Shown here: positions 31,014 through 64,000 of the stretch, one piece after another
Layout of the letters: every line of letters starts with the position of its first letter
How positions within the stretch are numbered: the first letter of the stretch is position 1
Source: Algoriphagus terrigena DSM 22685
GTDB lineage: Bacteria > Bacteroidota > Bacteroidia > Cytophagales > Cyclobacteriaceae
Reading direction: 5' to 3'
DNA length: 64,000 nt
NCBI RefSeq assembly: GCF_000429445.1
Contig: NZ_AUBW01000005.1
Span: 1 to 64,000 of the forward strand
Program-made: the position numbers and the translations under genes
Notes under the pieces: model-generated
What the model was told of the DNA's origin: nothing
The model's database searches: none
The model's input: only the letters and a program-made list of their open reading frames with translations

Positions 31014-31035
31014 GATTTCACTTTGATTTACGATT

Positions 31036-31341
31036 TTAAAATTGTTCAACCGTACTTGCGTCCACCTTGTCATATTCTGAGTGCGTCCCGATGAATTTAA
31101 TAAACACCCACTGCCTCAAATAGCTGATTTGAACGATTAACCGATATTTATTCCGTGCAATGTTAAACACCACCCGATTGTTTTTAACAGGATCTGCATC
31201 CGGAAAATCCTGAACCACATCCGAGGGCTTTTGCCATACTGCGTGTTTTATGACAGCAATCCAGGTTTCTATGCTTGATTTTGAATCTGGATGCTTCTGG
31301 TAAAACTCCGTCAGATTTTTGATGGCAATAATGTTTTTCAA
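31036..31341 (-). CDS. HigB-family mRNA interferase toxin (intact module)
   Basis: 101 residues, the usual size for the HigB_toxin family (RelE/ParE-like fold). Visible features: 'NIIAIKNLTEFYQKHPDSKS', 'WQKPSDVVQDFPDADPV', 'NNRVVFNIARNKYRLIVQIS' and 'RQWVFIKFIGTHSEYDKV', which is the family core with the basic/aromatic residues used for ribosome-dependent mRNA cleavage. First gene of the module; antitoxin follows. An almost identical toxin lies at 41551. Confidence 0.92.
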   Translation of the reverse strand: MKNIIAIKNLTEFYQKHPDSKSSIETWIAVIKHAVWQKPSDVVQDFPDADPVKNNRVVFNIARNKYRLIVQISYLRQWVFIKFIGTHSEYDKVDASTVEQF

Positions 31342-41129: not shown

Positions 41130-41522
41130 TTATAAGCTTACTTTTTCCTGTTTTCCATCCAGCTCATACGGTTGGATAAGCACTTCAACCGGCAGCTTTA
41201 ATAAAGGCGAGAGATTTCTGATCATTTCGATCGTCAGCGCCCTTTTCCTATTTAAAACGAGGCTGACCGTAGTTTTACTTCCAATTGCAGAGATGAGATG
41301 TTTGTCCTTAAAACCTTTTCTGTCCATTGTTTCTTTTATGGCCTCGATGGGATCAGGCAAGGCAATAGGGTAATGCTCCTTTTCGTACTTTTCAATTAAA
41401 GTCACCAGCAATTCTGCCTCCATCCCTTCGGCGCTGTCGGGATCTGCTTCGAAGATTTTAGAAAGCCGGGCAAGGGTTTCCTTATACTCTTTTTCTGTCG
41501 TAATTGTCTTTTCCCACTTCAT
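41130..41522 (-). CDS. HigA-like antitoxin (second intact module)
   Basis: 130 residues from the ATG at 41522, matching 30621-31013 over its length ('KWEKTITTEKEYKETLARLS', 'KHLISAIGSKTTVSLVLNRK', 'MIRNLSPLLKLPVEVLIQPY'). It follows the toxin by 28 bases. XRE/HigA-type HTH protein that should neutralise HigB and repress the shared palindrome at 41885. Only a few substitutions separate it from the other copies, so cross-neutralisation is plausible. Confidence 0.9.
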   Translation of the reverse strand: MKWEKTITTEKEYKETLARLSKIFEADPDSAEGMEAELLVTLIEKYEKEHYPIALPDPIEAIKETMDRKGFKDKHLISAIGSKTTVSLVLNRKRALTIEMIRNLSPLLKLPVEVLIQPYELDGKQEKVSL

Positions 41523-41550
41523 GATTTCACTTTGATTTACGATTTTAAAA

Positions 41551-41850
41551 TTATCCAACCGTACTTACGTCCACCTTGTCATATTCTGAGTGTGTCCCGA
41601 TGAATTTAATAAAGACCCACTGCCTCAAATAGCTGATTTGAACGATTAACCGATATTTATTCCGTGCAATGTTAAACACCACCCGATTGTTTTTAACAGG
41701 ATCTGCGTCCGGAAAATCCCGAACCACATCCGAAGGTTTTTGCCATACAGATTGTTTTGTGACAGCAATCCAGGTTTCAATGCTCGATTTTGAATCTGGA
41801 TGCTTCTGGTAAAACTCCGTCAAATTTTTGATGGCAATAATGTTTTTCAA
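41551..41850 (-). CDS. HigB-family mRNA interferase toxin (second intact module)
   Basis: 99 residues, nearly identical to 31036-31341 ('WQKPSDVVRDFPDADPVKNN', 'VVFNIARNKYRLIVQIS', 'RQWVFIKFIGTHSEYDKV'). The C-terminus is slightly changed ('DVSTVG' in place of 'DASTVEQF') because of a new stop codon; whether the loss of two residues alters activity cannot be told. Same HigBA order with the operator palindrome 35 bases upstream. Confidence 0.91.
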   Translation of the reverse strand: MKNIIAIKNLTEFYQKHPDSKSSIETWIAVTKQSVWQKPSDVVRDFPDADPVKNNRVVFNIARNKYRLIVQISYLRQWVFIKFIGTHSEYDKVDVSTVG

Positions 41851-47091: not shown

Positions 47092-50000
47092 CTAATTTAA
47101 TTCTTCCCGCTTCACCTTACCAAAAGTCTCTAGTTCTATGAATTTGGAATCAAAGAGATTTGTCGGTATTTTTTTCTGTAACAAATTATGGAAATTATCA
47201 TCGTGTGTTGACAGAATAATTTGTTTCTTATTATTGTAGACCAGGCTTCGGAGCAAATCGATAGTAGATAAAATATTAATACTGTCCATGCTCTGGATCG
47301 GATCGTCGATAAAAATACAGTCCACGTACTTGCCACTCTTATCGGTTACGTTTAGCGCTTTGGCTAAAAATATGCTCAGGCTGAGAATATTCAACTGGGC
47401 GGTACTGAAATAGAGGTTCGGGATGAGCATTTCTTCTCCGGTACCTCCAACTACGCAAACATTGAGCTTGGGCTTATCGTCCTTAAAATCACACAGGAAG
47501 CGGATTTTGCGGTAAGTTGGATGCGGATCGATCTTTTCGTACAGGTCGTTGATCAGGTCCTGGTAGAAGAATGAACTGATCTCTTTGTCCAGGTGTGCTG
47601 CTACTTTATTCTTTTCGGTGTTTAGCCGTTTTCTGACGGTATCTTTCAGAAATCCGAGCTGTTCCCTGAGATCCCGCTCTTCCCGTACGGACATCTGATA
47701 TTTCAAATATGGCAATACTGCTTTGAGCTGCTCTTTTAGCACCTGGAGATCTAGCTGTGTCCTTTGGTCTTTTTCGATATCGCTTTTCAGGCGTCTGTCG
47801 AATTCCAGAAGAAAATCTTTTGCAGTATTTGGTTCATCTGGAAAGTAACTGAATTCCCTAATTAGGAAGGATTCGAAGGAACTGATGGCTTCTTCAGCCT
47901 GGTTTAAAGATTTTCTTGCCTGTCGCACCTGTGCGTCCACGTCTTCCCGGTTCATGCCAATGATGGGTGCAGAGGTTTCTGCTACCATTAGAGCTTTTTC
48001 TGCTCGCTGTTTTTCCAGATCATCTTTTGCATGGTCGAGTTTTGTTGAAAAGGCTTCTAACTCTTCCGGGTCTGGAGTTCCTAGCTCTAGGTTTTTTAGG
48101 GAATATTCCAGTACACGGAGATAGTCCTGCCGCTCGGCCAATTCTTCCTGGCGGCTTACAAAGAGCTCGATCTGTTTTTTTGTGGTTTCGAATTTTTCTC
48201 TGGCCAGGTCTGCCTTGGCTTTAGCCTCAATCGTATTTTCCTTGGCTGTTGTCAGTTCTTTTTCCTGTTGTCCGATTTGGCGATCTAATTCGGACAGGTA
48301 CTCTGCGTATGTGTTATTGTTTAAAAGTCCTTTAAAATCAAGCTTGGTCTGGTTGATCTCCGCAAGAGCTCTATCGATAGTTTCCAAGTCTCTTTTCATC
48401 GAAGACTCTTCGGCAAGCTGTTTTTTCAGTTTATCGTCAAAGCCGTCCAATTCATTCCTGAAATCAGCTTCCATTTCTTGACGCAGCTGATTGATCGTTT
48501 CGAGCGTCTGGTTTTGCTGCTGCTGAAGAATGGTACGCTGTTCCAGCATTATCTGGAGGTCTTTAGCTAGCAGTGTATTTCCGGCAATGTTGCTGGCTAG
48601 ATCAGAATAAGTTTTGAAATCATGGTTGCACAACGGGCATTCGCTGGTCTGGGTTCTGTTAACGATCTGTGATCCCAAGGCTACCAGTCTTTCAATTTCA
48701 CTGTTGAATTCTTCCCTGCTTTGGATCTGCGTGTCCAGGTTGATGAGTTGTGCGCGGATTTGATCGTTTCGTTTCTGCTCTTGTTCGGCTTTTTCAATAC
48801 GTTCTACAAAACTGGCGTATTGTTGATCCGCGGTATTTGGGTATTTTCCGATGGAAAGGCCGGTTAAATTATCCTCGACACGTTTAATGTGTTGCTGCGT
48901 GGTAACGATTTTTTGACCGATCTCCGTTAACTTGTCCTGCTCATCGCTTTTTTGGTTGAACAGCTTAGTTTCCTCTGACTGATCCTGTTTTACTTTTTGC
49001 TCGATAGACTGGGCATCTTTTTTTCGGTTCAGAGTCGCGGAAATCTGGTTCAGTTTATTGTTTTCCGCTTCTGCAGCCTTTAGGATTGCATTATTCGCTT
49101 CAGCAAGCGAAGCCTCAGCCTTATCACGTTGATCCGCTGCATTTCGGGCATTGGTTTTTTCTGCATCAATTTCTTTTTGGGTCTGGACGTATCCAGGAAA
49201 AATGCGCTGGATTTCCTTTACTTCTGCCTGGCTCTTCTGGATTTCTGCGACCTGATCAAGCAGGACGTTCAGCTCGTCATTCAATTTGCTCAAGTCGTCG
49301 AAACTATTCAGTCGGGATTTGTAGGTTTCGTATAGTTTTCGCACTTCGGGCATTCTTGCCTGCTGGGCCTCGTATTGGTTCAGGCCTAATACCTCTTCGT
49401 TACCTTGAAAAGCAAGTTTTATCACATTCAGGACGCCGTTATTTTTGTTGAGCTGGAAGACTAGGGCATGCTGTAATTCGATCAACTGGCTATCATAGTG
49501 CACAAAATCTTTATCGCTAAAGTCAGAATCGATCAGCGTTAGCTCACTATAAATGCTTCTAAGGCCGGTGATTTTATCGTTGACCTTTTTCAGGATTTCA
49601 TGGTCGCCGTTGAACTGGATTTCTTTTTGGACACCTTTAAGATCTGTGGTTAACTGCTTTATCTTCGCATCTGTGGTTTTGATCAGGCTGACTATCGAAG
49701 TATAGTACTTATCGAGTTGCTGGTTGCCAAAATAGCTAATAAAGGTTTTGTAACGTTCTGCTGCATCATCTTCTTTTAAAAATGCATCAATCCATTCCTG
49801 GGAAAGGATAACTTTCTGGAAAAAATCGTTTTCTGTTTCCTTGCTGTCGAACTTATAATCGACCATACCACTCCGGGGTATGGGGATGTTGCGGACGGTT
49901 GGTTTATCAGAATTTGTGGTAAAGAGCTTTACATATCCTTGGGTGGCATCGTCGGCATTGTGGTTGCGCAGAATCTGGTACTTGCTTTTGTGCTCAGGGC

Positions 50001-50256
50001 TACCTTCCTCGCTGTTAATGTTCTTTTGAGACTTGCTGCTTTCTTGGTTGAATTTCTGCTTTCTCAGGAAACGGTGGATATTGCTGGTATATCCCCATTC
50101 TACCGCGTCGTAAAAAGAGGTCTTACCGAATCCGTTTGGAGCATAGATGGAAATGAAGTCCGCATTGCGCTGGTTATTCAGCTGAAAATCAAATGTTCCG
50201 TCTTCGGCTTTATCATAAGCACGGAAGGCCTGTATCTCGACTTTTTTAAATTTCAT
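47092..50256 (-). CDS. Rad50/SMC-like ATPase of an ABC three-component / Lamassu-type system (LmuB-like)
   Basis: 1054 residues. Walker A 'YAPNGFGKTSFYDAVEW' at 38-54, long coiled coils from about 190 to 900, a zinc-hook Cys pair 'CPLCNHDF' near 540, an ABC signature-like 'FSTAQLNILSLSIFLAKAL' and Walker B 'CIFIDDPIQSMD' near 985, then the H-loop 'ILSTHDDNF'. This is the architecture of RecF/Rad50-type sensors in Lamassu and ABC-3C defence systems. It probably detects foreign or broken DNA ends and releases its partner effectors. It is the last gene of a four-gene overlapping operon (11-base overlap with the upstream gene). Confidence 0.9.
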   Translation of the reverse strand: MKFKKVEIQAFRAYDKAEDGTFDFQLNNQRNADFISIYAPNGFGKTSFYDAVEWGYTSNIHRFLRKQKFNQESSKSQKNINSEEGSPEHKSKYQILRNHNADDATQGYVKLFTTNSDKPTVRNIPIPRSGMVDYKFDSKETENDFFQKVILSQEWIDAFLKEDDAAERYKTFISYFGNQQLDKYYTSIVSLIKTTDAKIKQLTTDLKGVQKEIQFNGDHEILKKVNDKITGLRSIYSELTLIDSDFSDKDFVHYDSQLIELQHALVFQLNKNNGVLNVIKLAFQGNEEVLGLNQYEAQQARMPEVRKLYETYKSRLNSFDDLSKLNDELNVLLDQVAEIQKSQAEVKEIQRIFPGYVQTQKEIDAEKTNARNAADQRDKAEASLAEANNAILKAAEAENNKLNQISATLNRKKDAQSIEQKVKQDQSEETKLFNQKSDEQDKLTEIGQKIVTTQQHIKRVEDNLTGLSIGKYPNTADQQYASFVERIEKAEQEQKRNDQIRAQLINLDTQIQSREEFNSEIERLVALGSQIVNRTQTSECPLCNHDFKTYSDLASNIAGNTLLAKDLQIMLEQRTILQQQQNQTLETINQLRQEMEADFRNELDGFDDKLKKQLAEESSMKRDLETIDRALAEINQTKLDFKGLLNNNTYAEYLSELDRQIGQQEKELTTAKENTIEAKAKADLAREKFETTKKQIELFVSRQEELAERQDYLRVLEYSLKNLELGTPDPEELEAFSTKLDHAKDDLEKQRAEKALMVAETSAPIIGMNREDVDAQVRQARKSLNQAEEAISSFESFLIREFSYFPDEPNTAKDFLLEFDRRLKSDIEKDQRTQLDLQVLKEQLKAVLPYLKYQMSVREERDLREQLGFLKDTVRKRLNTEKNKVAAHLDKEISSFFYQDLINDLYEKIDPHPTYRKIRFLCDFKDDKPKLNVCVVGGTGEEMLIPNLYFSTAQLNILSLSIFLAKALNVTDKSGKYVDCIFIDDPIQSMDSINILSTIDLLRSLVYNNKKQIILSTHDDNFHNLLQKKIPTNLFDSKFIELETFGKVKREELN

Positions 50257-50803
50257 CCTTAAAGCTCCTTTCTATTTTTTTTAGCAGGTCATCATAATCA
50301 ATCGCTTTTTTCTTTTTATCATCACCGTCAGCGAGAATCTTGTTAAGCACTGCAGTGATTGCCTGATCCTGTACAAATGGACTCGGCGCCGGCTGCGGGG
50401 TATTGATGGTGAGGCTGGAATTAGTGATATGGTTAGAAATAATTTCCTCCATTTTTCCGCGATCAAGCGCTCCATTAAATTCTTCTATCACGATCTTCCT
50501 GCTGGAGATCGGATCATTTTCTATCCGGTATTTTAATCCTTTCTCCATCTTTTGCTTGCTCAGGTAAAAAAGATAAAGGTTCCAGCGCTCAAAATCAGTT
50601 TCGATTTTGGTCTGGTAATATAATGCGACAGCATTGGAAATTTCTTCCCATAGCAACTGGATCAGTTCGTCCGATTCAAACCGGACGAATACCGTTGTTA
50701 CCCATCCACCATATTCAATCCGGTGGAATTCAACTGTTGCCCCTGGGAAAAGGTCTTTTAATATCTCTATCGCTTTATTTCTAAGGATTAAATACTGCTC
50801 CAT
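50246..50803 (-). CDS. Middle component of the ABC three-component system (LmuC-like)
   Basis: 185 residues of mainly alpha/beta then helical composition: 'NKAIEILKDLFPGATVEFHR', 'TTVFVRFESDELIQLLWEEI', 'WNLYLFYLSKQKMEKGLKYR' and 'NDPISSRKIVIEEF'. Small proteins of this kind ('ABC-3C middle component') link the SMC-like ATPase to the effector. The assignment rests on position between protease and ATPase, overlaps with both (23 and 11 bases), and size; no catalytic motif is present or expected. Confidence 0.75.
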   Translation of the reverse strand: MEQYLILRNKAIEILKDLFPGATVEFHRIEYGGWVTTVFVRFESDELIQLLWEEISNAVALYYQTKIETDFERWNLYLFYLSKQKMEKGLKYRIENDPISSRKIVIEEFNGALDRGKMEEIISNHITNSSLTINTPQPAPSPFVQDQAITAVLNKILADGDDKKKKAIDYDDLLKKIERSFKDEI

Positions 50804-52118
50804 ATTCTAGTTTTAATTTATCTAGGTATTCCTGGTCGGTTTCCAGCGCACTGTACTCGTCATGTTTTCTACTGATGGATTTTCCTTTGAAATAATCCAT
50901 GTGTACGAACTTGTAGTGATCGAAGGGAAAGATCTTTCCATCGTTAATCTTTAGTTTGTGTCTTTCTCTTGTTTTTCTAGCGCTGGCGATCAGGGGAATG
51001 TTACCATCAATAATATACTGATCATCTCTTGCTGGCGGTTTACGGGTAGAAATTACTACCGTTCCCTCATCTGCGAGCCCCAGATAGTCGGAATAGGCGA
51101 TATTGGAGAGTTCGCTGCTCCAGTCTTTATCCGAATCGGAGTGTAACAGGCGGACGGTATTGAACAAGTCTTCCAGATCCTTCTCCGCTATTATCCTGTC
51201 TTGAATGATTTGCATGACTGTTATGAATTCCAGCCAGATTTTCCAGATTTCCTTGCCCTGAAGGATTTCTTCTTTTTGCTCTGCTATCAGCAGCCTTTTT
51301 GCAAATTGTTTTTTGATTATGTGTGGCGCTGCCCCGCTTTGGGTAACTGATCTCGCCTTATCTAGCAGAAAAGCTTTTATGCCCGCGATATTGTCTTGCG
51401 AAAACCCGGCATCCAGATCGAAAGCCTCGTCCATCAGGAAGGAGAAACAGCTTAGGTGTGCTGGTAACAGCTGGCAAAGTGTATCAGGATTTTGATCAAT
51501 GATTTCATCGAAGGATGTTAGGGGGAAAAATTCTGCTCTGCCCATGTTTTCTCCAAATGCCCTGGCCATATTGGTTTCAATGCCTGCAATCATTACGTTA
51601 TTTTGGTGAAGAATAAGTACGGGACCACCGGACTGTCCAGTCACTTCCTCCTGATTGGCGTTCCCTGCTAAGGTAAATTCTCTGGCGTTGTCATTGTGGC
51701 CCATGATCTGCGTAATTGCATCTGAACGGAACCAAAGACTTTTGTTGGCTAAATTCGCTTGTCTTCTGGTGGCGGGGTATCCTAATAAAGCATAACCTGC
51801 GTTCATTTGCTCATTAAGTTCGTCGCTACGGTAAATTGAGCTGACTCCTTGAATGCGAGGTACGGTGATGATGGCGATATCCAGCTGGGGATGAGGAAAA
51901 TAGTTTTGACCGAGCGCCAGAGGCTGGAAAGGTATTTCTCTTGCTGTCCAGCTCGCACCGTTTTGTTCAAACCGGGTGAGCATGTTCAGCTGATCGCCCT
52001 CATCTAACAGATTGTGCTTTGCGGTAAGGATATAGCTATAGCCGATATCCATTGGCTGAAAGATGCACCCACTGCCGTTATTGACGATCACCACATATGG
52101 TCTAAGCTGATCACTCAT
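50781..52118 (-). CDS. Trypsin-like serine protease effector of the ABC three-component system
   Basis: About 445 residues from ATG 52118; an earlier TTG at 52142 is possible. The N-terminal trypsin-like domain has a triad with His35 ('YILTAKHNLLD'), Asp80 ('HPQLDIAIITVPR') and Ser163 ('VTGQSGGPVLIL'). The C-terminal 200 residues are an extra domain that presumably binds the middle component or ATPase ('DEAFDLDAGFSQDNIAGIKA', 'SSELSNIAYSDYLGLADEGT'). No signal peptide, so cytoplasmic. When released it would cleave cellular proteins, giving abortive defence; the target is unknown. Overlaps the upstream MBL gene by eight bases. Confidence 0.85.
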   Translation of the reverse strand: MSDQLRPYVVIVNNGSGCIFQPMDIGYSYILTAKHNLLDEGDQLNMLTRFEQNGASWTAREIPFQPLALGQNYFPHPQLDIAIITVPRIQGVSSIYRSDELNEQMNAGYALLGYPATRRQANLANKSLWFRSDAITQIMGHNDNAREFTLAGNANQEEVTGQSGGPVLILHQNNVMIAGIETNMARAFGENMGRAEFFPLTSFDEIIDQNPDTLCQLLPAHLSCFSFLMDEAFDLDAGFSQDNIAGIKAFLLDKARSVTQSGAAPHIIKKQFAKRLLIAEQKEEILQGKEIWKIWLEFITVMQIIQDRIIAEKDLEDLFNTVRLLHSDSDKDWSSELSNIAYSDYLGLADEGTVVISTRKPPARDDQYIIDGNIPLIASARKTRERHKLKINDGKIFPFDHYKFVHMDYFKGKSISRKHDEYSALETDQEYLDKLKLEYGAVFNP

Positions 52119-53181
52119 ATATATTGATGTCGTTTGCGTCAAAAAACTGGAATTTATTATAATCTATCCTGTCCTGTGGATTAAAAATTAGACCGGTCAG
52201 CTCAGGATAATTGAAATATATCCTGGATTCCGGGTTATTCTCGATGATCCTCGCCAAAAGCACTTTGTCCGGATGACCGTGGCTAAGGCCATGGGCACTG
52301 ATCACGTACCTATCGGTAGCAATTGCTCTGAGGAGTTCTGAACTCGTGTTCGCTTTACTTCCGTGATGTGAGATCTTGACAAATTTTACCGGTAGGGGAT
52401 TACTTTTGTTGTATCCCAGTTCATTCAACTGTTTGAGCACAACTCCTGGATGACTGTCCCCTAAAAAGAGATATTTGTCCTGATTTTTGTACGTCAGAAT
52501 AAATGCGATGGAGCTCCCATTGGCGACACGGTCATCTTCTTCAAAAGTGTCTTTTGCAAGGCATTCTTTTAGAGTTTCTGAGTAGCCTGCATATTTGGCT
52601 GAGGTATTGTAATTGGGATCTTCTTTCTTCCAGAGTGTTAACAATTTGGTCATTTTATCTATGTCAGGTGAGAGAAACTCAAATTTGAGCTCACCTAATT
52701 CTATACTCTTGCCTCCAAAAATTACAATTCCATCGATCAGGTTATTTTCCTCTAGCCATTTGTTGAAGGTTGCTCCCTGGGGAATACTGGTTTTATAATC
52801 CGCTTTGATGTGTAACGAGATCTCAAGCTCTGGATTTTCCGCCATCGCCAAGTGCGCCGCGATGATCTTGCCAGAGTTGAACCAGACCTTACCAATAACT
52901 TCGTGAGCACGGGAATCGTCTTGGATCCAGGAGAGGATTCCATCGATGTGGTCATCATCCACGTGAGTCAATATCAAAAGGTCGATTTTTAAATCATGAC
53001 ATCGCAGCTCCTGAACCAATAAATGAAGTTCACCGTATTCTGGCTTGCCTTTTTTGCCTTTGCGTAGGTAGGTTTGCGATGGCCCCCCGTCAATTAGAAT
53101 GTTTCTACGGACACCGTCCTTATCTCTATAAGAGATTAGAATAGCGTCCCCGTTAAATGCTTTGAGAAATTTTACGTTCAA
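52111..53181 (-). CDS. Metallo-beta-lactamase-fold hydrolase effector (ComEC-like)
   Basis: About 356 residues if translation starts at TTG 53181 ('NVKFLKAFNGDAILISY' is the normal family N-terminus); the frame is open from TTG 53229 and has no earlier ATG. MBL motifs: 'LIDGGPSQTYL', 'LILTHVDDDHIDGILSW' (H-x-D-D-D-H), 'YLFLGDSHPGVVLKQL' and 'VKISHHGSKANTSSELL'. This is the ComEC/Rec2 C-terminal type, likely a nuclease or phosphodiesterase. First gene of the defence operon and probably the second effector beside the protease, as in Lamassu hydrolase-protease types. Confidence 0.87.
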   Translation of the reverse strand: MNVKFLKAFNGDAILISYRDKDGVRRNILIDGGPSQTYLRKGKKGKPEYGELHLLVQELRCHDLKIDLLILTHVDDDHIDGILSWIQDDSRAHEVIGKVWFNSGKIIAAHLAMAENPELEISLHIKADYKTSIPQGATFNKWLEENNLIDGIVIFGGKSIELGELKFEFLSPDIDKMTKLLTLWKKEDPNYNTSAKYAGYSETLKECLAKDTFEEDDRVANGSSIAFILTYKNQDKYLFLGDSHPGVVLKQLNELGYNKSNPLPVKFVKISHHGSKANTSSELLRAIATDRYVISAHGLSHGHPDKVLLARIIENNPESRIYFNYPELTGLIFNPQDRIDYNKFQFFDANDINIYE

Positions 53182-53576
53182 TTTTGTGAAATATTTTTGA
53201 TACAAACTCCAAATTAACAAGGGTTCCAAATGTGGCTAGTCACATTCTAAATCCTAAGTTAACGATATGTTTGAAAAACATTTTAATGTAAAAGTAAATC
53301 AGTTTTTTATCTCACTAAATGAATGATAAAAGGACGAATGTGAATAATGTCTCAATAAAACACTGGTTCAGTCAGCCTTGCTAATTCAATTGAAACTAAA
53401 TCCCACCATTTTAAGACTCCGAAAAGAATCCTGATTATTAAATAATTAGACCTCTGTTTCAATAAAAAAATCAAAACATCTTTGTGCTTTTATATAAATA
53501 TACATTTACATTTTTAAATGCAACAACTTTGAATTAGGATCGTAAATTCTTATAATGAAATCTTGAATGCTTGACT
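53182..53576. promoter_or_regulatory. AT-rich upstream region of the defence operon
   Basis: About 395 bases, strongly AT-rich, between divergent genes. It carries the promoters. No repeat, operator or RNA gene recognised. Confidence 0.4.
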
Positions 53577-54030: not shown

Positions 54031-54936
54031 TTACTCCTCCCCTTCTTGGTCAATTCCAAGGATGTAATTGGCTGCTTGGTGAGCCTTTTGAGCAGCATAG
54101 ATCAGCATTTTTGGATCTTCCTGCAGTGGCTTAAACCATCCTTTCAGATAGGCCAAGGAGTTTTTGAAATTTGCATCCTTGATTCCGGCAAGAGCATTCA
54201 AAAAACTGGCTCCCATTTCGGCGATCAATTCCTCTTTTGAATATTCCACAGAACCAAAACCAACCAAAGCCGGTCTTTCTGCAAATCTTCCTAATCTGCT
54301 GGAGTGGCCAGTAGAGTGGATCATTTCATGGAATAGGACTGAATAATATTGCTCGTCTCCTTTGAAGGATTCCATATTCGGCATATTGATAAAATCTCTG
54401 GAAGGGCTGTAAAATGCATCGTCACCTTCATGAACAATATTCGGACAGGTGGTGTAACCTGAAATGATGGATTCGCAAGTTTCGATTGGGGAAAAAACCC
54501 TTTCCCCGGCACCTTCAATGGGAAAATCGATACCTTCAATTTGGTCGATATTAAAAACCGTCCAGATAAATGGAGTAAACTTCCTTCCATAGAGATCCTC
54601 GTCTTCTCCAGCTTCGTTTGTGCTTTGCCCTTTGACAAATTTTGAGATCTTCCAGAACACGACTTTTGACCCTTTTTCGCCTTTTTTGACGTTTCCTCTA
54701 AGCTGCTTTGCTTGTTTGAAGGTCAGGAAGTAGGGATGGCTGAATTTCTTGGATATCGTCACCCAAGCAAGCCAGAGTGCATTAAAACCCAAGTACGGGC
54801 GATTTGAGGCATAATTCTTAGGTGCATTTTTAGGATTCCAGACTTGTTCCCAAGTAAGGTTTTCATTTTGGATACCTTCGATGATTTCATTGGTAACAGT
54901 TTCCGCTAATTGGTTGAAATTTTCCCAAGCTTTCAT
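54031..54936 (-). CDS. ArdC-like antirestriction protein with zincin domain
   Basis: 301 residues. The N-terminal ArdC ssDNA-binding domain (about 1-135) reads 'WNPKNAPKNYASNRPYLGFN' and 'FLTFKQAKQLRGNVKKGEKG'; the C-terminal MPTase-like zincin (about 150-290) has 'HEMIHSTGH' at 203-211, the H-E-x-x-H...H zinc site. Such proteins are carried by plasmids, ICEs and phages to protect incoming DNA or cleave host defence proteins. Its presence beside defence genes marks this region as horizontally acquired. The upstream small ORF overlaps its start by four bases. Confidence 0.92.
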   Translation of the reverse strand: MKAWENFNQLAETVTNEIIEGIQNENLTWEQVWNPKNAPKNYASNRPYLGFNALWLAWVTISKKFSHPYFLTFKQAKQLRGNVKKGEKGSKVVFWKISKFVKGQSTNEAGEDEDLYGRKFTPFIWTVFNIDQIEGIDFPIEGAGERVFSPIETCESIISGYTTCPNIVHEGDDAFYSPSRDFINMPNMESFKGDEQYYSVLFHEMIHSTGHSSRLGRFAERPALVGFGSVEYSKEELIAEMGASFLNALAGIKDANFKNSLAYLKGWFKPLQEDPKMLIYAAQKAHQAANYILGIDQEGEE

Positions 54937-56646: not shown

Positions 56647-57879
56647 TTATTTCCGGAAAGGTCGGGCCATTTCTTTTTGGACCTCTTTATAAGCATTAGC
56701 GATAGCCTTTACCCATCCAGCCACTTCTTCTGCAAATTCCTTACTCCGAAATTTCTCCCATGATTCAAACGAAAGCTGTGGTTCATTTTTAAGCAGTTTT
56801 ACTTCAGAAATCCAAAACCAATTGTGGTAAGCCTCTCCGACTTGAAGATATTTTCCAACACTTAAATTGCCTACCAACGTTTCATAAAATCTATTTCTAA
56901 CTTCTATAGGCACCACTAAAGGGGATATATTTAAATCCACGTGCATACCTATGGCAACAGTACCGCTGCTTAACCAGTACAATCGAATTCTTTCTGTACG
57001 ACTTCCCTTTATCCAGAATGATATTTCAGCATCCGACTTTGGGATATTTTTTCCACTAAAATCAATATCAAAGTGATCTTCAAAGTCGGAAATACCTTTT
57101 AACGATTTTACAAGTTCTTCTCCAAACTGCTGGTAAAGCTTGTATTCAGTTGATTTTAAAGAATTAAATGCCTTAAAGGACTCTGAATTTCTTGTAATTT
57201 GTTTTATTATTTCGTCACTCATCTGATCGTCTGGGTTTTGGTTAGTAAGTCTTTTGATATTGGCGATGTACTGCGTTAATGTTTCCCGGATAATGGGTTG
57301 ATCGATTGAAGCTAACCGACACGTCTCGATCCATTTATGGATATGTTCCCTGAAGGAAACTTTCTCATACACTTTAAAATCAACATAATACTGACTCTCA
57401 TCTCCCACAAGAGTCAAAAAACACACTTTTGATTCGCTTGATTTAAAGTTGTTTTTCAGGTAGTTGTAATAGCGATGAAGTTGCTTTTGTTGCTCCACAG
57501 CATAAATTTTTAATTCAATAGCAATACCAATATTTTTGTATGGATTTGAGATCAATAAGTCGATTCTTCCCCCTTCAATATTTTCCCAATCTCTTTTGCC
57601 TACATGCTTCTCTATCTCAACAGTGAAGCCATCAGTGTCTTCTTTGATTCCGATGGCTTCAAAGAATAGTTTCAGAAATTTATCTCCTTGAAAATGTCCA
57701 GCTTTAGGATTTATTAGATAACCTATCAATCGAGTGTGAAAACGAGCTTCATCGCTTTCTAAATCCAGTGCATGGATAAAACTGAACCCGTTACCTGAAA
57801 CCCGAAGGTTCTTTTCATAATTCTGAACTACCAAACCAACTCGGTTCAATAAACTTTCTGCAGCTAAAAATTCATTCAT
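56647..57879 (-). CDS. PD-(D/E)XK nuclease-family protein
   Basis: 410 residues. The N-terminal half carries the restriction-endonuclease-like core: Asp107 in 'GGRIDLLISNPYKNI', Glu122 and Lys124 in 'IAIELKIYAVEQQKQLHRYY' followed by Q/Y residues, as in the PDDEXK family of Bacteroidota (PF14281-like). The C-terminal half is a separate domain ('SDAEISFWIKGSRTERIRLY'). A single gene flanked by defence genes; a role in DNA cleavage or abortive defence is likely but not shown. Confidence 0.82.
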   Translation of the reverse strand: MNEFLAAESLLNRVGLVVQNYEKNLRVSGNGFSFIHALDLESDEARFHTRLIGYLINPKAGHFQGDKFLKLFFEAIGIKEDTDGFTVEIEKHVGKRDWENIEGGRIDLLISNPYKNIGIAIELKIYAVEQQKQLHRYYNYLKNNFKSSESKVCFLTLVGDESQYYVDFKVYEKVSFREHIHKWIETCRLASIDQPIIRETLTQYIANIKRLTNQNPDDQMSDEIIKQITRNSESFKAFNSLKSTEYKLYQQFGEELVKSLKGISDFEDHFDIDFSGKNIPKSDAEISFWIKGSRTERIRLYWLSSGTVAIGMHVDLNISPLVVPIEVRNRFYETLVGNLSVGKYLQVGEAYHNWFWISEVKLLKNEPQLSFESWEKFRSKEFAEEVAGWVKAIANAYKEVQKEMARPFRK

Positions 57880-57934: not shown

Positions 57935-58582
57935 TCAAATCTCATTTAACTCCGAGACTATCCACTCATCTGCCTTTTCATAAGCACTCCTAAGAGCGAG
58001 ATTCCCATATCGATGGCGTATTTCATCCAAGCAGTGGGAAGTGGGTTCACGGCGATTATCAGCCAAAACATAGATAGCTTGATCCGCATTTTTGCGACTG
58101 TATATTCCTTCAAAGTAAAAGGGCATGGTGGCAAGCCATTCCAATCCCTGCGTATGGGTTCGATAATGGAGGCCAAGGGACTGAAAAAGCAAGGTGCCGG
58201 TCGCTCTTCCCAAGCCTGCAAGGAATACCAACTCCCCTTCCAAAGTCCTGAGATGCGTCTCGATGTCTTGGGGAATTGGAAGAATAGGCAAAGGTTCCTT
58301 CTTCAGAAAACGCACATGTTCATAAGGCTCATAGAGGTATTCTGGAGGGATGAACCGGAAAAACTTCGCGTGAACATTCACTTGACTTGGTAATTCACCA
58401 TCTATCAGCGTAAAAGAATCAAAATTTAGCTTCTCCCCGTCTTTTGCCACCGATCGGCATGCAGCCGTTCCCAAGGCAATCAGATGCCGTGAATGGGCGG
58501 GGGATGAAGCTGGGATTGCCGCCATGGCCAAAGGCGTCGCTGCGAAGACCGGAAACGTTTTGAGAAAGGTTCGTCTTTTCAT
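57935..58582 (-). CDS. FtsZ/tubulin-like protein with a Tat-type leader
   Basis: 215 residues from ATG 58582. The leader 'MKRRTFLKTFPVFAATPLAM' has twin Arg and a hydrophobic core. After it the sequence follows FtsZ order: 'HLIALGTAACRSVAK' (35-46) at the place of the GxGGxGxNAV loop, 'LEGELVFLAGLGRATGTLLF' (114-133) at the place of 'DMVFI.AGMGGGTGTG', and 'WLATMPFYFEG' at the place of 'VV..PF.FEG'. The glycine-rich loop is altered (GRATGT), so GTP binding is uncertain, and the C-terminal FtsZ domain is missing. Its start overlaps the upstream gene as ATGA. An exported or membrane-tethered FtsZ-like protein would be unusual. Confidence 0.6.
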   Translation of the reverse strand: MKRRTFLKTFPVFAATPLAMAAIPASSPAHSRHLIALGTAACRSVAKDGEKLNFDSFTLIDGELPSQVNVHAKFFRFIPPEYLYEPYEHVRFLKKEPLPILPIPQDIETHLRTLEGELVFLAGLGRATGTLLFQSLGLHYRTHTQGLEWLATMPFYFEGIYSRKNADQAIYVLADNRREPTSHCLDEIRHRYGNLALRSAYEKADEWIVSELNEI

Positions 58583-59535
58583 TGGATGATTGATTGATGG
58601 GTGATGGCTGTAAACTTCCATCCACCCCGGAAATCGAGCTGGATGAAATTGGGTTGGATGGGTACTTTTTGGGTCGTTCTTGGATGCTGCCTGAATACCG
58701 GAAGAAAGAAATCTATGGCGGCACGTTGGAGTTGTACATTGCTGAGTCTTTTGTAAAAAATATAGGCCAGGAAGTAATCCATCGCATTGAGAGTTAATTT
58801 GACCTGTGTGCCAAGCATTTTAGATCCCATTTCCTCCAGAGCCTGTGTAACCCTTTGGAGTTCGATCGCCAGTAAGATGTGGATAGGCTCATCTTTGGAA
58901 AAGAATACCAGCTCCTCTTTTCGCAGATAGTCTTGCTCCATTAATCCCTGTAGTTCTACTGGCACATAACTCTTCCTGATTCGGTCCAAGTGACTTTCTT
59001 GCTGGCTCCACAGAAACTGGAACATGAGCCGGGTCCTTACGAAATCACAATCTCCAAAACAATCCAGGAAGCTAATTATCAAGCTTCCCCGCGCATCTGA
59101 GGGGCTGATTTCGAGTTGGGAGATATCGAGCTTTTTCCGCTCCCTGAGAAATTTTTGTACCCGTTGCCCTTCCCTGCATAAATTGGATTCCAAGAAGAAG
59201 TCATGGAAAAAATCAGTCAACACGACCTTTGGGAAAACAAGATAGGATTCCTGAAAAGCCTGAACCTGAGCCTTTGAAGAAGGTGCATTGTTATCCCAAT
59301 TTTCCCATAGAATGATGGATTCACTTTGCCAGTCCAGCAGCTCCAGTAGATCAGTCAGGATTTCCCTTGCTTTTTGCCTTTTCCCGTACCCAATCAGGTG
59401 GATAAAGTGCACCTCCTCCCGGGACTGGATACCCAGCCAAAAGGGTTGCAGCAGATCCATCACCTCATCGATGAAAAGCAGCCATGAAGGGTGAAGTTTT
59501 TTCAATGCCTTTCGGGCCATGGAGAATTGAATCAT
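58579..59535 (-). CDS. Unknown protein coupled to the FtsZ-like gene
   Basis: About 318 residues. I chose ATG 59535 because GGAGGT lies nine bases before it; the open frame runs to a TTG at 59574. No family recognised. Visible are a helical N-terminus ('LKKLHPSWLLFIDEVMDLLQ'), 'FIHLIGYGKRQKAREILTDL', a central 'SPSDARGSLIISFLDCFGDC' and a helix-rich end. The stop overlaps the FtsZ-like start, so the two are one operon, transcribed divergently from the WYL regulator. It may be the partner or cofactor of the FtsZ-like protein. Confidence 0.7.
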   Translation of the reverse strand: MIQFSMARKALKKLHPSWLLFIDEVMDLLQPFWLGIQSREEVHFIHLIGYGKRQKAREILTDLLELLDWQSESIILWENWDNNAPSSKAQVQAFQESYLVFPKVVLTDFFHDFFLESNLCREGQRVQKFLRERKKLDISQLEISPSDARGSLIISFLDCFGDCDFVRTRLMFQFLWSQQESHLDRIRKSYVPVELQGLMEQDYLRKEELVFFSKDEPIHILLAIELQRVTQALEEMGSKMLGTQVKLTLNAMDYFLAYIFYKRLSNVQLQRAAIDFFLPVFRQHPRTTQKVPIQPNFIQLDFRGGWKFTAITHQSIIQ

Positions 59536-59666
59536 ATCATTCATACCTCCAAAGAAATTCGGCACCTCTGCCAAAAGCCGCCCGAGCTAAAAGTTTTTTC
59601 TATCTTCCTACCCTCAGCCATCTTTTGGCAAACCCTCGCGCTTTCTTTGAAGAAGAATTTTCTGCT

Positions 59667-60575
59667 ATGAGCAAACTCACTTCCCTATATCGACAACTGG
59701 AAATCATCAAACTCGCCAAAAAAGGCCCGTTTGAATGGGACGAATTGGAACGCCATCTAGAACGGAGATCTGTTGGCAGTGACCTCAATCTCCTTATCTC
59801 CAAACGGACGCTCAACCGAGACTTAAAGGAAATCCAACAGCTGTTTGGCTTGGTGATCGAGTTTGACTTCAAACCCGCCAAATACACGCTGAAGGAAGAA
59901 GAAAGCTCAGAGGACCACATGGAACTTCTGGAGTCCTTTGAAACCATTCAGGCGTTTGGTCGAGCTAATAAACTGAGTGGCAGTGTGTTTTTTGAAAAGC
60001 GCTTGGCCCGAGGCACGGAGTACCTCAGACCTATTCTGGATGCGATTGAAAATCAGGAAGCGATTCAGATCGAGTATGAGAAGTTCTGGCTTTGGGAAAC
60101 GGAAACCCGGCAGCTGCGGCCCATTGCACTCAAAGAATACCTGCATCGTTGGTATGTGATGGCCTGGAATGAAAAGGATGAACTCCGATTCTATGGGCTT
60201 GACCGGATCAAGACTTTGATGCCTATCTCGGGAAAAGTAAAACTTCCCAAATCACCTGACCTCGAATGCCGCTTTCTGGAAACCATTGGCATCATCAACG
60301 ATCCCAACGAACCGGTAGAAACTGTCATCCTCACATTCACTGAATTCAAGGGCCGCTATATCCAATCCATGCCCCTCCATCCAACTCAGGAAATACTTGT
60401 TAATGATGGAAATACCCTAAAAATTAGACTTCGGGTAAAAATCAACTACGAACTGATCTCCGTGATACTTTCCCATGGAGACGAAGTCAAAGTAGAAGAA
60501 CCAGAGCGGTTAAGGGAGATGGTAAGGAAGAAGGCAGAGAATTTTGTCAAACAAAAATTACAATTTTCAAGATGA
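59667..60575 (+). CDS. WYL-domain transcriptional regulator
   Basis: 302 residues from ATG 59667; the open frame upstream overlaps the divergent gene. An N-terminal winged HTH ('LTSLYRQLEIIKLAKKGPFE', 'SKRTLNRDLKEIQQLFGLVI') is followed by a WYL domain (about 120-210, 'EAIQIEYEKFWLWETETRQL', 'IALKEYLHRWYVMAWNEKDE', 'LRFYGLDRIKTL') and a WCX-type C-terminus. WYL proteins of the BrxR/CapW kind control defence loci. The 130-base gap to the divergent unknown/FtsZ-like operon makes that operon a likely target. It overlaps the following nuclease-like gene by four bases. Confidence 0.92.
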   Translation: MSKLTSLYRQLEIIKLAKKGPFEWDELERHLERRSVGSDLNLLISKRTLNRDLKEIQQLFGLVIEFDFKPAKYTLKEEESSEDHMELLESFETIQAFGRANKLSGSVFFEKRLARGTEYLRPILDAIENQEAIQIEYEKFWLWETETRQLRPIALKEYLHRWYVMAWNEKDELRFYGLDRIKTLMPISGKVKLPKSPDLECRFLETIGIINDPNEPVETVILTFTEFKGRYIQSMPLHPTQEILVNDGNTLKIRLRVKINYELISVILSHGDEVKVEEPERLREMVRKKAENFVKQKLQFSR

Positions 60576-61102
60576 ACAAATCAATCAAAATCAATCCGGA
60601 ATTATTGTTCCAAACTATTCAAGGAGTTGCCAGGTCGATAGAAAACGAGCTTGCTTCAATCAATGAAACAGGAATTTTCTTTGTTCCTGAACTTCATTTG
60701 GCATTCGAGGTAGGAAAAAAAATCTACATACACCGAAAAGAAATTTTTGGAACCAATGAACTGAAATGGGTCAGAGAAAAAAACCTTGGCAATGGCGGAC
60801 CATGTGACCTAATCTTTGAAAATGATTCTGAATCGGTTGTTTTTGAGTTTAAAATAGCTGACACCTGGAATTCCTATGAAAAAGACATCAAAAAACTTCA
60901 GTCACTGCCAAACGAGGATTCGCATAGCTATCATAAATTCTTTGTGGCTGTCGTCGATCAATTTAGAGAAAAGCAGGATGGAAGGATTGATTACTTGAAA
61001 AGTTTTGATCAACTCCATTTAAGAATGGAATCCTTTGAAGTAGGATATTCAGGTTACCAAGGAAATATCAACTGTGTGTTGGCGCTCTATCGGGTTAATT
61101 GA
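60572..61102 (+). CDS. PD-(D/E)XK-like small protein
   Basis: 176 residues. 'PCDLIFENDSESVVFEFKIA' holds Asp79, Glu92 and Lys94 at the spacing of the PD-(D/E)XK core, with 'HLAFEVGKKIYIHRKEIF' before it providing the helix with Glu. The gene overlaps the WYL gene by four bases, so it is in the same transcript. It could be a small nuclease or a nuclease-fold binding subunit. Family not named with certainty. Confidence 0.65.
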   Translation: MNKSIKINPELLFQTIQGVARSIENELASINETGIFFVPELHLAFEVGKKIYIHRKEIFGTNELKWVREKNLGNGGPCDLIFENDSESVVFEFKIADTWNSYEKDIKKLQSLPNEDSHSYHKFFVAVVDQFREKQDGRIDYLKSFDQLHLRMESFEVGYSGYQGNINCVLALYRVN

Positions 61103-61387: not shown

Positions 61388-62161
61388 TTACCTATAATCC
61401 AAATACTCCACCATAGGCCAATGATATTTATCCTCAGGAAGGTTCATCTTCTTTTCATGCAGTGAACTTGTTAATGCTCGATCCATTTTACTGTAGGGCT
61501 TCATTTCTTCATCAGGATCTAAGTACGATATTTTGTACTCATTATTCACCGAGAGAATTCCTGTATCATAAAGCAAATGATGATTGGCGCAGAGAAGTAT
61601 TCCATTTCTCACATCAATTCTCTCTTTACTACTACATGCAACCCAAGGCTTTATATGTGATGCTTGAAGTAGCCCTGGCCATGATATTTTGCAGAATGCA
61701 CATTTCCCAGCATACGCTTTCATTACAGCCCTCCTGAATACAAGTTGAGCTATTCCGCGAGATTTAACTTTTACATAGACTTCGCTACTATTTTCTGGAT
61801 ATTCCAAGAGTTTCTCAACCAAAGAATGACTTGACTCTCCTCCTCTGGCAAATTCAAACGGGTTCTCATGTAACAACCAATTCCATCCATATACCTTCTT
61901 CTCTCCCTCTTCGATAGAATCCACTCCATAATAGTAAAACCCTGCGCCAACTCCACCTTTGTAATTTCTCACAAGTATTGTCAAAGGAGGCAAATTTTCC
62001 GAATTGCAATATTCTTGAATCAACCCCAACACAGGACCAAGCTTCCTATGATATACTCCAATTAGCCTCCCAAGCTCAGTATATGTATAAATTCGCCTTT
62101 CATTGACGGCAACTAATAGTGCATCCCAAGCGAGGCAGGCCCGCTGTTCTTGATTAACCAT
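61388..62161 (-). CDS. HNH endonuclease
   Basis: 257 residues. The C-terminal HNH domain has zinc Cys in 'GKCAFCKISW' (154 and 157), His169 in 'LLQASHIKPW', 'VRNGILLCANHHLLYD' with Cys191 and His194/195. The N-terminal 100 residues ('AWDALLVAVNERRIYTYTEL', 'GAGFYYYGVDSIEEGEKKVY') form a separate domain, possibly for target recognition. This layout is that of HNH_2-type restriction-like nucleases. It starts eight bases after the end of the helicase gene, so both are one operon. Confidence 0.9.
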   Translation of the reverse strand: MVNQEQRACLAWDALLVAVNERRIYTYTELGRLIGVYHRKLGPVLGLIQEYCNSENLPPLTILVRNYKGGVGAGFYYYGVDSIEEGEKKVYGWNWLLHENPFEFARGGESSHSLVEKLLEYPENSSEVYVKVKSRGIAQLVFRRAVMKAYAGKCAFCKISWPGLLQASHIKPWVACSSKERIDVRNGILLCANHHLLYDTGILSVNNEYKISYLDPDEEMKPYSKMDRALTSSLHEKKMNLPEDKYHWPMVEYLDYR

Positions 62162-62169
62162 GGTCGTAT

Positions 62170-64000
62170 TTATTGAAATTGATGAATATGCTTGGTGAAA
62201 AATGAATCAAATGCCTGGTTTCCAAAATTGACAACAAATAAATTTTTCCGACATCTGGTGATGGCAGTATAAATTAATTCCTCTGAGTTAAAACCTTCAT
62301 CACTTTCTGATGCGGGATCTATTGATTCTTCATTCAAGCCGCTAGATTCTTCGTCGTTTGTGATCAATAAAATTAGTGTATCCACCTCCCATCCTTTAAA
62401 ACTGTGGACTGTAGAAAGTTTCAATAAACCACGATTATCCCAGTAATTAAATTTCTTGCTTCTTCGCACCTTGTAGATGTCATTTTTAACCAATTTGACA
62501 TTTTTCAGAATCTTTTCTTCTTCGTCATTTATAGATTCACCTTCTTTCATTTTCTTTCGAATGGCCTTGTAATCCTTTTTGAATTGTTCATTCGAAAGCT
62601 TTCTGTTTTTTAGAATCTCAAGGTAGGTTTCTTGCGATTCAAACATGGTATTTGTCTTCTGACTCGATGTCGTGGAAATATGTTCATCTATAAGTCTGAG
62701 AGGTTCAACTGATGCCGATTGAATGCAAATATCATTGTCATGTAAACCGTATTTCTTGGCTACTTTTCTATAGATTCTGAATATTTCATCAGCGCTAAAT
62801 GCCTGAAAATTATGATAGCCAATCTCCGACTGATCAAACAAATCACCTTGAGTCAGTATTTCATCAAATTCATACCTCCCATCGAAGAAGTGTTTCTGAA
62901 ATAGTTCTGCAAGCCGTCCAATTTTATTAGAAACTCTATACGATTTTTTCAATAGATTCCATTGACCGCCGATTTTAGTGAAAGGTTTCTTCTCTTGATC
63001 ATCGAATACTCTTTGGTAGATATTCTGCTTTTCATCTCCATAGGCGACATATTCACTACTCTCAGCATTTAAAAAGTATTTGAGAACTAACTCCACCCAA
63101 GGCTTTTGATAATCTTGAATTTCATCTACGAGGATGGTGTCATATTGATCAATTGCATCCTTTACTATTTCAAAGAATGAAGTATTCTCCCATGAGTCGA
63201 AGGATAAAATTGGGCGGCTATGGTTATTGGCCATGTTGGAAAAAAACTGATGGTAATGGATGATGTGAAAATATTTCCAATCAAATCCTTCTCTCACTTC
63301 ACTGATCTTATCTCGAATATAATTCCGAAGGGTGATATTGAAAGTCAGAATTAAAACGTTTCCACCATGCCTTAAATGGGCATTTACTGCCCTTTTAGCA
63401 AGGCATAACGTCTTACCGCTTCCAGCTACACCTTTTACTTTTTGCCATGATCCAGCCCTTGATTCGATGATCTTTTCTTGTTCCTTAGAATAGGTTATTC
63501 TAATTCCCTGTTCCGAAGTATGGGTTGAGGGTGAAAAACATCTTTTGAAACTCTCGTACAATTCCTGATCAAAAAGATAGGACTTCTTCGACACCCATCT
63601 TTTCTCCATTATTGATTGGATGTTACCCTCTGTAAAAGTGTTTATACCCAACAGATCAAAGTATGACAAGTATCCTAAGTACTTATTCCAGTGCTGAGAG
63701 TCTCTTTCATCTTTTTGAAACTTGGTCTTGACAAAATCATTTAATTCCTGAGTAGAAGCATTGTGAAAATAGACTACACAATTTACGATATTGAGCATCT
63801 TGAAATTCTGAATCTGCTTTTCCAACAAGCCTTCTACATGTAGGTTAAACAAATTCTCTTTGTAATTGAGCACTTGTTTGACTGGAGATTTTATCGGGTG
63901 TCGATCTCTACCTCCGACATTCACATGCCAATTTCTTTTTTCATCAATCGTATAATGCCTCAAATCCCAATCTTTGACCTCAACGATAATCACACCTCCT
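62170..64000 (-). CDS. NERD-UvrD-type helicase (5' end outside window)
   Basis: At least 609 residues; the frame is open to the window edge ('GGVIIVEVKDWDLRHY' right at the end), so the apparent GTG start at 63993 is not real. The N-terminal part is a NERD nuclease-related domain with the 'VEVKDW' motif. SF1 helicase motifs follow: 'KGVAGSGKTLCLAKRA' (Walker A), 'TILVDEIQDYQKPW' (Walker B), 'LLKKSYRVSNKIG', 'STVHSFKGWEVDTLILL' and 'YTAITRCRKNLFVVN'. Together with the HNH gene it resembles nuclease-helicase defence pairs; whether further genes belong to it lies beyond the window. Confidence 0.9.
   Translation of the reverse strand, partial: GGVIIVEVKDWDLRHYTIDEKRNWHVNVGGRDRHPIKSPVKQVLNYKENLFNLHVEGLLEKQIQNFKMLNIVNCVVYFHNASTQELNDFVKTKFQKDERDSQHWNKYLGYLSYFDLLGINTFTEGNIQSIMEKRWVSKKSYLFDQELYESFKRCFSPSTHTSEQGIRITYSKEQEKIIESRAGSWQKVKGVAGSGKTLCLAKRAVNAHLRHGGNVLILTFNITLRNYIRDKISEVREGFDWKYFHIIHYHQFFSNMANNHSRPILSFDSWENTSFFEIVKDAIDQYDTILVDEIQDYQKPWVELVLKYFLNAESSEYVAYGDEKQNIYQRVFDDQEKKPFTKIGGQWNLLKKSYRVSNKIGRLAELFQKHFFDGRYEFDEILTQGDLFDQSEIGYHNFQAFSADEIFRIYRKVAKKYGLHDNDICIQSASVEPLRLIDEHISTTSSQKTNTMFESQETYLEILKNRKLSNEQFKKDYKAIRKKMKEGESINDEEEKILKNVKLVKNDIYKVRRSKKFNYWDNRGLLKLSTVHSFKGWEVDTLILLITNDEESSGLNEESIDPASESDEGFNSEELIYTAITRCRKNLFVVNFGNQAFDSFFTKHIHQFQ

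Follow-up and report, generated by a model that had tools for sequence, protein, structure and literature searches.

A stretch of 64,000 nucleotides from Algoriphagus terrigena DSM 22685 (contig NZ_AUBW01000005.1, positions 1 to 64,000; 'the window' below means this whole stretch) encodes a 215-residue protein that we found to be a true homologue of FtsZ, consisting of the N-terminal domain only and carrying a leader of the twin-arginine (Tat) type. We call it FtsZl. Together with an adjoining 318-residue protein, P318, and a divergently transcribed WYL regulator, it makes up a cassette that is patchy yet conserved in Algoriphagus and one more genus. We propose, with a probability of roughly 45%, that this cassette is a candidate antiphage module in which an FtsZ-derived domain would serve as the bait or client of an AAA+ protein.

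Results

FtsZl is the N-terminal domain of FtsZ behind a Tat-type leader

An initial annotation, made from the letters of the DNA, had described the FtsZl gene (57935-58582, minus strand) as FtsZ-like, its 215-residue product keeping the FtsZ landmarks in order (ALGTAACRSV, GLGRATGT and PFYFEG), bearing a twin-arginine leader and lacking the C-terminal domain; we located every one of these elements as described. The FtsZ N-terminal domain occupies residues ~30-215. A profile of 10 FtsZl proteins matched 25 Algoriphagus FtsZ sequences with a probability of 98% (profile-profile comparison, E 7e-14, 123 columns), and a profile search of the PDB (177,635 sequences) gave 49 matches at E≤0.1, every one named FtsZ, with the best at 1.4e-10. 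FtsZl may descend from Bacteroidota FtsZ: in profile bit scores, FtsZ proteins of the same order reached 64, against a best of 44.3 in the PDB set. Within its own genome the FtsZl query found one other protein, the normal FtsZ (33% over residues 117-209, E 1.8e-6).

The fold agrees with the sequence. The AlphaFold2 model of FtsZl has a predicted local distance difference test score (pLDDT) of 84.9 and a predicted template modelling score (pTM) of 0.80; residues 1-28 fall below 50, as for a disordered leader. Among the best 50 Foldseek matches listed for this model, 49 were FtsZ and one was TubZ, and VIA gave a Z score of 18.7 (182 residues, 4.3 Å), with 18.6 against 1w5f (170 residues, 2.5 Å). 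By Foldseek, VIA and the PDB profile search alike, FtsZl belongs to the FtsZ/tubulin N-terminal domain fold, as had been anticipated for 57935-58582, and no other fold was predicted. A chance likeness to FtsZ was considered and ruled out by the two profile comparisons and the VIA match. Foldseek against viral proteins returned four matches at E≤0.001 (315-452 residues, best 2.8e-5), two of them named FtsZ or tubulin-like.

The FtsZl chain stops in the H7 region, leaving out the T7 catalytic loop, the C-terminal domain and the tail, which shows that the protein lacks parts that FtsZ needs for polymerisation. The loops that contact the nucleotide are altered as well: in the window protein both T1 and T4 are degenerate, T4 reading GLGRATGT and not GMGGGTGTG, so that the tubulin signature GGGTG(S/T)G is absent. 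Other FtsZ features are kept, namely PFxFEG, the YGN..R.A..KAD stretch and the residues that start H7. Searches of Pfam, NCBIfam and PADLOC with FtsZl matched no family. FtsZl is, in other words, a real family for which the searched libraries hold no model, built of the N-domain only and mostly furnished with a Tat-type leader.

The leader (residues ~1-28 in both sequence and model) has RRxF at residues 3-6 in nine of the 12 FtsZl rows aligned, the window protein included. Two rows are leaderless and one, from locus L148, begins NTREFLK with a single arginine (loci are numbered L and genomes G throughout). Since TatC is encoded in the genome (205 bits against a cut-off of 25.1), FtsZl has by sequence what would be expected of a Tat substrate, an N-terminal RRxF(L) leader in a host with TatC. 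The twin-arginine leader that had been proposed was thus confirmed at the sequence level; the further suggestion of a membrane-acting module stood in so far as the leader is there, but nothing besides the leader supports action at the membrane.

P318 has a Clp-type AAA+ fold and gives way to other AAA+ proteins

P318 (58579-59544, minus strand) lies directly upstream of FtsZl. It is 318 residues long if started at the ATG at 59535 and 321 if started at 59544, the latter agreeing with the start in relatives. The ATG of FtsZl overlaps its TGA (ATGA), which bears out the proposed coupling of the two genes. P318 matched no Pfam family at E≤1, and a PDB sequence search with it gave no match. Its model (pLDDT 86.9, pTM 0.81) places it in the AAA+ fold: all 50 Foldseek rows listed were Clp/HSP100 entries (ClpB, ClpC, ClpA, Skd3 and Hsp104), and VIA gave Z 12.3 over 260 residues with a root mean square deviation of 17.4. 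This large deviation indicates that the two lobes are turned against each other; against ClpB (4fcv_A), Z was 11.8 with 4.2 Å over 192 residues. The Walker A pattern GxxGxGK[ST] is missing, being GYGKRQKA or more eroded in all 11 rows aligned, and the aspartate of Walker B is likewise not fully conserved among them. The protein that the initial annotation had left as an unknown is therefore, on its predicted structure, a Clp-type AAA+ fold without Walker A and not an unknown fold.

As judged from sequence profiles, P318 may be a degenerate relative of the soluble AAA+-M41 protease family. Alignment of P318 with 11 AAA+-M41 relatives in hhalign scored 43.8, the maximum being 27.7 in 100 column shuffles and 19.2 on reversal.

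Beyond P318, we found the partner of FtsZl to vary. In L148, from a third genus (genome G078), the order WYL, AAA+, FtsZl is kept and the AAA+ protein is intact (GKPGTGKTT; PF00004 at 35.7 bits), its PDB matches being AFG2, VCP, proteasome ATPases and BCS1 (best 2.8e-5). The FtsZl of L054 and L097 is leaderless and clusters with an AAA+-M41 protease in which Walker A and HExGH are present, and the T4 loops of these leaderless proteins (LGFGSGNG and LGHGSGTG) come closest to the tubulin signature. The two clusters have other small genes in common, and each holds a WYL gene of a second type as well as a relative of a 176-residue accessory protein described below; L097 has a second AAA+ ATPase besides the AAA+-M41 protease. 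An AAA+ fold protein, of whatever kind, stood beside or near FtsZl in all 13 FtsZl loci examined (the window, L032-L035, L042, L043, L051, L053-L055, L097 and L148). As the partner can be P318, an intact AAA+ protein or AAA+-M41, we take the unit to be an AAA+ fold plus an FtsZ N-domain.

Relatives of AAA+-M41, whole or in part, occur in eight of 72 genus genomes (E≤1e-20). AAA+-M41 as a fixed partner of FtsZl was dropped: L083-L086 yielded just an 18-residue match to leaderless FtsZl (L085, E 0.003), and in L083 and L084, from other Bacteroidota, AAA+-M41 stands with a WYL gene and without FtsZl. These two loci (L083:8988-12986 and L084:1720-4814) pair the WYL gene with a soluble AAA+-M41 protease, a Clp-type AAA+ fused to an FtsH-type peptidase; PADLOC gave weak matches on L083 (DolB 5e-5, PDC-S01 3.8e-4) and none on L084. 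The leaderless FtsZl clusters (L054:3285-9275 and L097:4079-10938) also contain small families without assignment, of ~196, 110 and 144 residues.

The cassette is patchy yet conserved

P318 was found in 10 of 72 genomes of the genus Algoriphagus, in five of 196 of a family sample, one of them from another genus (G121), and, with the P318 profile, in three of 395 of a phylum sample, all Algoriphagus. The pair of genes does recur in other genomes, as had been expected; conservation across other Bacteroidota was too wide a claim. FtsZl-level matches occur in 10 of the 72 genus genomes, nine of which have both FtsZl and P318; G267 has a leaderless FtsZl without P318. Among the matches listed for an order sample, FtsZl-level ones (E<1e-29) came from seven of 291 genomes, including G121 and G078, and the remainder had E values of at least 2.6e-17, started at residue 91 or later and lay in open frames of 297-667 residues, as would be expected of FtsZ, except for one frame of 790 residues in G828. 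Searches of viral contigs with FtsZl and P318, of plasmids with P318, of phages with FtsZl, and of genome contigs with a single FtsZl protein found none.

We compared 12 P318 loci (the window, L032, L033, L034, L035, L042, L043 and L051-L055). FtsZl directly follows P318 in 10 of them (L035 has both genes broken, and L053 a shortened FtsZl), and the WYL gene lies divergently beside P318 in 10. Departures from this order are L052, where FtsZl is absent, L043, which is rearranged, and L055, where WYL is absent. FtsZl is full length in the window, L032, L033, L034, L042, L051, L054, L055 and L148. FtsZl diverges fastest of the three proteins: identity to the window is 35-49% for Tat-type FtsZl (33% in L148), 41-63% for P318 (with one outlier at 24%, L043) and 74-81% for the WYL regulator within the genus (52% in L042, 57% in L148). 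The ratio of non-synonymous to synonymous substitution (dN/dS) in close pairs was 0.29, 0.40 and 0.34 for FtsZl (three of three pairs), 0.16 and 0.36 for P318, and 0.13 and 0.13 for WYL.

A WYL regulator and a candidate operator

The gene divergent from P318 (59667-60575, plus strand, 302 residues) encodes a transcription regulator with WYL and WCX domains, both above their Pfam cut-offs (46.5 bits against 21.8, and 44 against 23.9, in a scan that used a longer open reading frame start), as had been read from the DNA. The intergenic region (59545-59666) contains two conserved boxes, at ~59613-59629 and ~59565-59576, which form a candidate WYL operator. They lie 51-53 bp apart in 10 loci, the same loci that were used to derive them (10 of the 11 promoters counted). 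In the L148 promoter, which was outside the derivation set, the boxes are separated by 40 bp and show 3 and 1 mismatches; the best box matches in two promoters of the other WYL type had 6 and 4. The operator pattern occurs once in its own genome, at the WYL-P318 promoter, and a reversed control likewise occurs once.

The WYL gene overlaps the next gene (60572-61102, plus strand) by ATGA. This gene encodes the 176-residue accessory protein with a PD-(D/E)XK-like motif; the proposed coupling of the two genes holds, and the nuclease motif (D...ExK) was recognised by eye, but a Pfam scan of the protein found no family at E≤1. Its relatives are coupled to WYL in the window, L052 and L053, and are also present in L054 and L097.

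The cassettes mostly lie among defence genes

The defence-island setting that had been proposed was also supported. PADLOC identified Lamassu genes (two LmuA proteins, LmuB and LmuC) at 47092-53229 and, 55 bp downstream of FtsZl, a PDDEXK_4 nuclease-like protein of family PDC-S26 (56647-57879, minus strand). A PDDEXK_4 gene directly follows FtsZl in the window, L032, L033 and L042, and PDC-S26 was found in these three relatives too. On the other side of the cassette, an HNH endonuclease gene lies beside a NERD+UvrD helicase (61388-63999; PADLOC C3a187, 1.5e-41). Defence neighbours in relatives include PglZ and BrxL of bacteriophage exclusion (BREX) in L032, two type I methyltransferases in L033, a type I restriction enzyme and PDC-S02 in L034, and an NsnB/AriA-type ATPase in L055. 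Eight of 10 neighbour proteins scanned in relatives, which had been selected beforehand for a defence-like look, had a match at E≤1e-5; one of these matches, to ZacB in L053 (1.8e-8), was weak.

Several other genes of the window are recorded here. By eye, the two LmuA proteins look metallo-beta-lactamase-like and trypsin-like. An ArdC-type antirestriction protein (window 54031-54936, L035:7666-8571 and L099:3985-4884) is 85-90% identical across Algoriphagus loci, and its gene lies near the FtsZl cassette in G022 too. Three near-identical small genes (MKWEKTITTEKEY...; 29090-29482, 30621-31073 and 41130-41558), spread over ~12 kb, appear by eye to encode helix-turn-helix antitoxin-like proteins.

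A whole FtsZ core inside Septu ATPases

The 790-residue frame found through the order search proved to be a Septu PtuA ATPase (L149:3133-5505; PADLOC 7.7e-139) that carries, in frame after its first ~85 residues, the whole FtsZ core (Tubulin 98-257, FtsZ_C 306-402), and it is followed by PtuB (PADLOC 8.4e-90). Relatives of PtuA (E≤1e-20) were present in 12 of 204 genomes of the G828 family. The fusion is intact in four of the 12, three from one genus (G828, G1036 and G1016) and one from another (G941), at L149 and at L165:1878-4250, L166:2441-4780 and L167:2836-5223; in G906 it is broken (L168). Among the others, three carry ~500 residues of TPR repeats and no FtsZ (L169:1324-4140, L170:255-3071 and L171:1275-4097), three are of ordinary length, and one (G925) is cut by the contig end. 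We gave up the idea that FtsZ and the TPR repeats replace each other at a single site of PtuA, because the repeats sit later in the protein than FtsZ does in the fusions. In the other three intact fusions the next gene has, by eye, a PtuB-like RRC[GN]YCEDSLADE stretch.

The inserted FtsZ is 85% identical to the own FtsZ of G828 (266 of 314 residues; 82.6% in DNA). Across the fusions, 19-60 of 198 columns that are invariant in 19 native FtsZ proteins have changed. The T6 loop Asn, which we take to be the guanine contact, is replaced in three of the four intact fusions, and the T7 Asp, presumably the catalytic residue, in one of the four (G828). An assembly chimera was ruled out by the four intact genomes with diverged copies. 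On the tree, the fusions could go back to one origin or to several. A search of viral contigs with the fusion found none. The fused FtsZ is a possible integrated decoy, and FtsZl gains interest from the fact that another defence locus within this order, unrelated to its own, has taken in a whole FtsZ.

Discussion

The reading we favour would run as follows. The WYL protein would repress the P318-FtsZl operon through the conserved boxes until a ligand linked to infection releases repression. The AAA+ protein would hold FtsZl as a dedicated client. FtsZl, being derived from FtsZ, would either compete with FtsZ or, as bait or adaptor, engage phage factors directed against it, and contact with FtsZl would be converted into an effect by the AAA+ protein or by a nuclease or protease encoded nearby. 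Through its leader FtsZl would be positioned or retained at the inner membrane or across it. In favour of this reading are the FtsZ homology and fold of FtsZl, the AAA+ fold of P318, the recurring gene order, the AAA+ proteins that stand in for P318 in L148, L054 and L097, the defence neighbours, and the RRxF leader in a genome with TatC. The identities of the parts are secure, and their folds, order, conservation and setting are shown; we infer the defence role, the repression by WYL, the action of the AAA+ protein on FtsZl and the role as bait or competitor; the bait step, taken by itself, is doubtful. FtsZ is a known target of phage inhibitors (Kil, Gp0.4, Hdi and Icd; PMC11897509), and a shortened FtsZ in defence clusters suggests that bacteria may use pieces of FtsZ in antiviral machinery. 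The PtuA-FtsZ fusions and CapRelEbc (PMC13423816) lend support to FtsZ as a component of defence.

Several observations weigh against this proposal. Export by the Tat route would keep FtsZl apart from phage inhibitors in the cytosol and from a cytosolic AAA+ protein, a problem of which the leaderless relatives and the PtuA-FtsZ fusion are free. FtsZl also lacks the C-terminal/synergy-loop side of FtsZ on which Gp0.4 is predicted to bind (PMC13423816), and with that surface missing its use as bait would be confined to N-domain inhibitors; PMC11897509 cites an older model in which Gp0.4 sits on FtsZ helices 1, 5 and 7. The Tat leader and the missing C-terminal domain thus count against a simple decoy. 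P318 is without Walker A, and its sequence link to AAA+-M41 has a probability of 57% with 11 relatives and 5.9% with three. In L148 FtsZl starts 161 bp after the AAA+ gene, so that the coupling is looser. One genome (G023, L052) retains P318 and WYL without FtsZl, and the FtsZl gene carries a frameshift in G022, is truncated in G214 and is shortened in G253, damage that relaxed selection would fit as well. Finally, defence neighbours, those scanned in relatives having been chosen in advance as defence-like, are no proof of defence, and PADLOC matches FtsZl to 0 families and P318 to just PDC-S02, at E 0.0092.

The leader can also be taken at face value, FtsZl then being a true Tat substrate that works as a GTP-free binding domain in the periplasm or at the inner membrane, while P318 would assist its folding or proofreading in the cytoplasm; FtsZl might serve an envelope stress response or block DNA entry. 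RRxF in all nine Tat-type rows, the disorder of residues 1-28 in the model, the presence of TatC and the degenerate nucleotide loops agree with this, but the leader is missing from two relatives and has just one arginine in a third, and we consider this reading unlikely.

Improbable to a like degree is that FtsZl poisons division: released from WYL control, a cytoplasmic FtsZl would cap host FtsZ filaments through the top face of its N-domain, division would stop as abortive infection or stress arrest, and P318 or the AAA+ protein would restrain FtsZl. By the general mechanics of FtsZ, a protein that retains PFxFEG and the start of H7 without the C-terminal domain could terminate chains. WYL control would suit an inducible toxicity, as with CapW and the cyclic-oligonucleotide-based antiphage signalling system (CBASS; PMC9122588). 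However, the conserved leader points to exit from the cytoplasm, the window protein has degenerate T1 and T4 loops, and it would be odd for a protein fitted to the conserved host FtsZ to be the fastest-diverging of the three. Very unlikely is a degenerating remnant in a defence hotspot, as the broken copies just listed and the absence from G023 might suggest, given dN/dS of 0.29-0.40 in all three close pairs, full-length genes in the loci named above and an order of WYL, AAA+ fold and FtsZl maintained in three genera.

Returning to the antiphage module, an extension of it, more doubtful still than the bait step, is that FtsZl (with a Clp-type pseudo-ATPase, AAA+-M41 or an intact AAA+ protein) and PtuA-FtsZ are parallel integrated decoys, FtsZ domains having been captured repeatedly as immune bait that senses phage proteins attacking division. 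FtsZl in defence islands and FtsZ inside a Septu ATPase would make it directly testable whether immunity guards FtsZ with copies of its own.

How does FtsZl compare with known systems? With FtsZ it shares the fold of the N-terminal domain, detectable sequence homology, PFxFEG and YGN..R.A..KAD, but it adds the Tat-type leader, is without the T7 loop, C-terminal domain and tail, and coexists with a normal FtsZ in the genome. DolB of Dodola, which we take to be labelled ClpB-like and to be accompanied by DolA, was compared through its PADLOC model: related AAA+-M41 proteins matched it weakly (1.9e-9 in L043, 9.1e-5 in L054), P318 itself gave no DolB match in a PADLOC scan, and the gene set of Dodola is unlike the FtsZl, P318 and WYL cassette. 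FtsZl1 and FtsZl2, as their families are described in PMC2875224, are likewise members of the FtsZ superfamily that occur alongside FtsZ and do not replace it. FtsZl1 mostly has a coiled coil and a helical C-terminal domain, often with vWA neighbours, and FtsZl2 has a C-terminal region of ~300 residues; FtsZl, at 215 residues in total, is without such a long C-terminal part and comes instead with a leader, a partner of AAA+ fold and a WYL gene. It would add a leader-bearing, N-domain-only family to the superfamily.

The regulator recalls CapW and BrxR, WYL proteins that adjoin defence genes as in the FtsZl cassette; CapW binds the promoter region and represses CBASS (PMC9122588), whereas the FtsZl operon is neither CBASS nor BREX and its control by WYL is proposed by analogy. 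The use of FtsZ in phage sensing has a parallel in CapRelEbc, for which T7 Gp0.4 is a trigger only in its FtsZ-bound form (PMC13423816, 2026). Unlike the bait proposed here, that system relies on the complete FtsZ of the host itself, complexed with Gp0.4, and on a toxin-antitoxin effector; the words 'PtuA', 'Septu', 'integrated' and 'guard' are absent from the main text of that paper. PtuA-FtsZ and FtsZl, finally, are both cases, within one order, of sequence derived from FtsZ in a defence locus built around an ATPase, but the fusion has both FtsZ domains inside PtuA, no leader and an adjoining PtuB HNH gene. If the decoy proposal is true, FtsZ-derived immune decoys would be a bacterial counterpart of the decoy domains in plant immune receptors.

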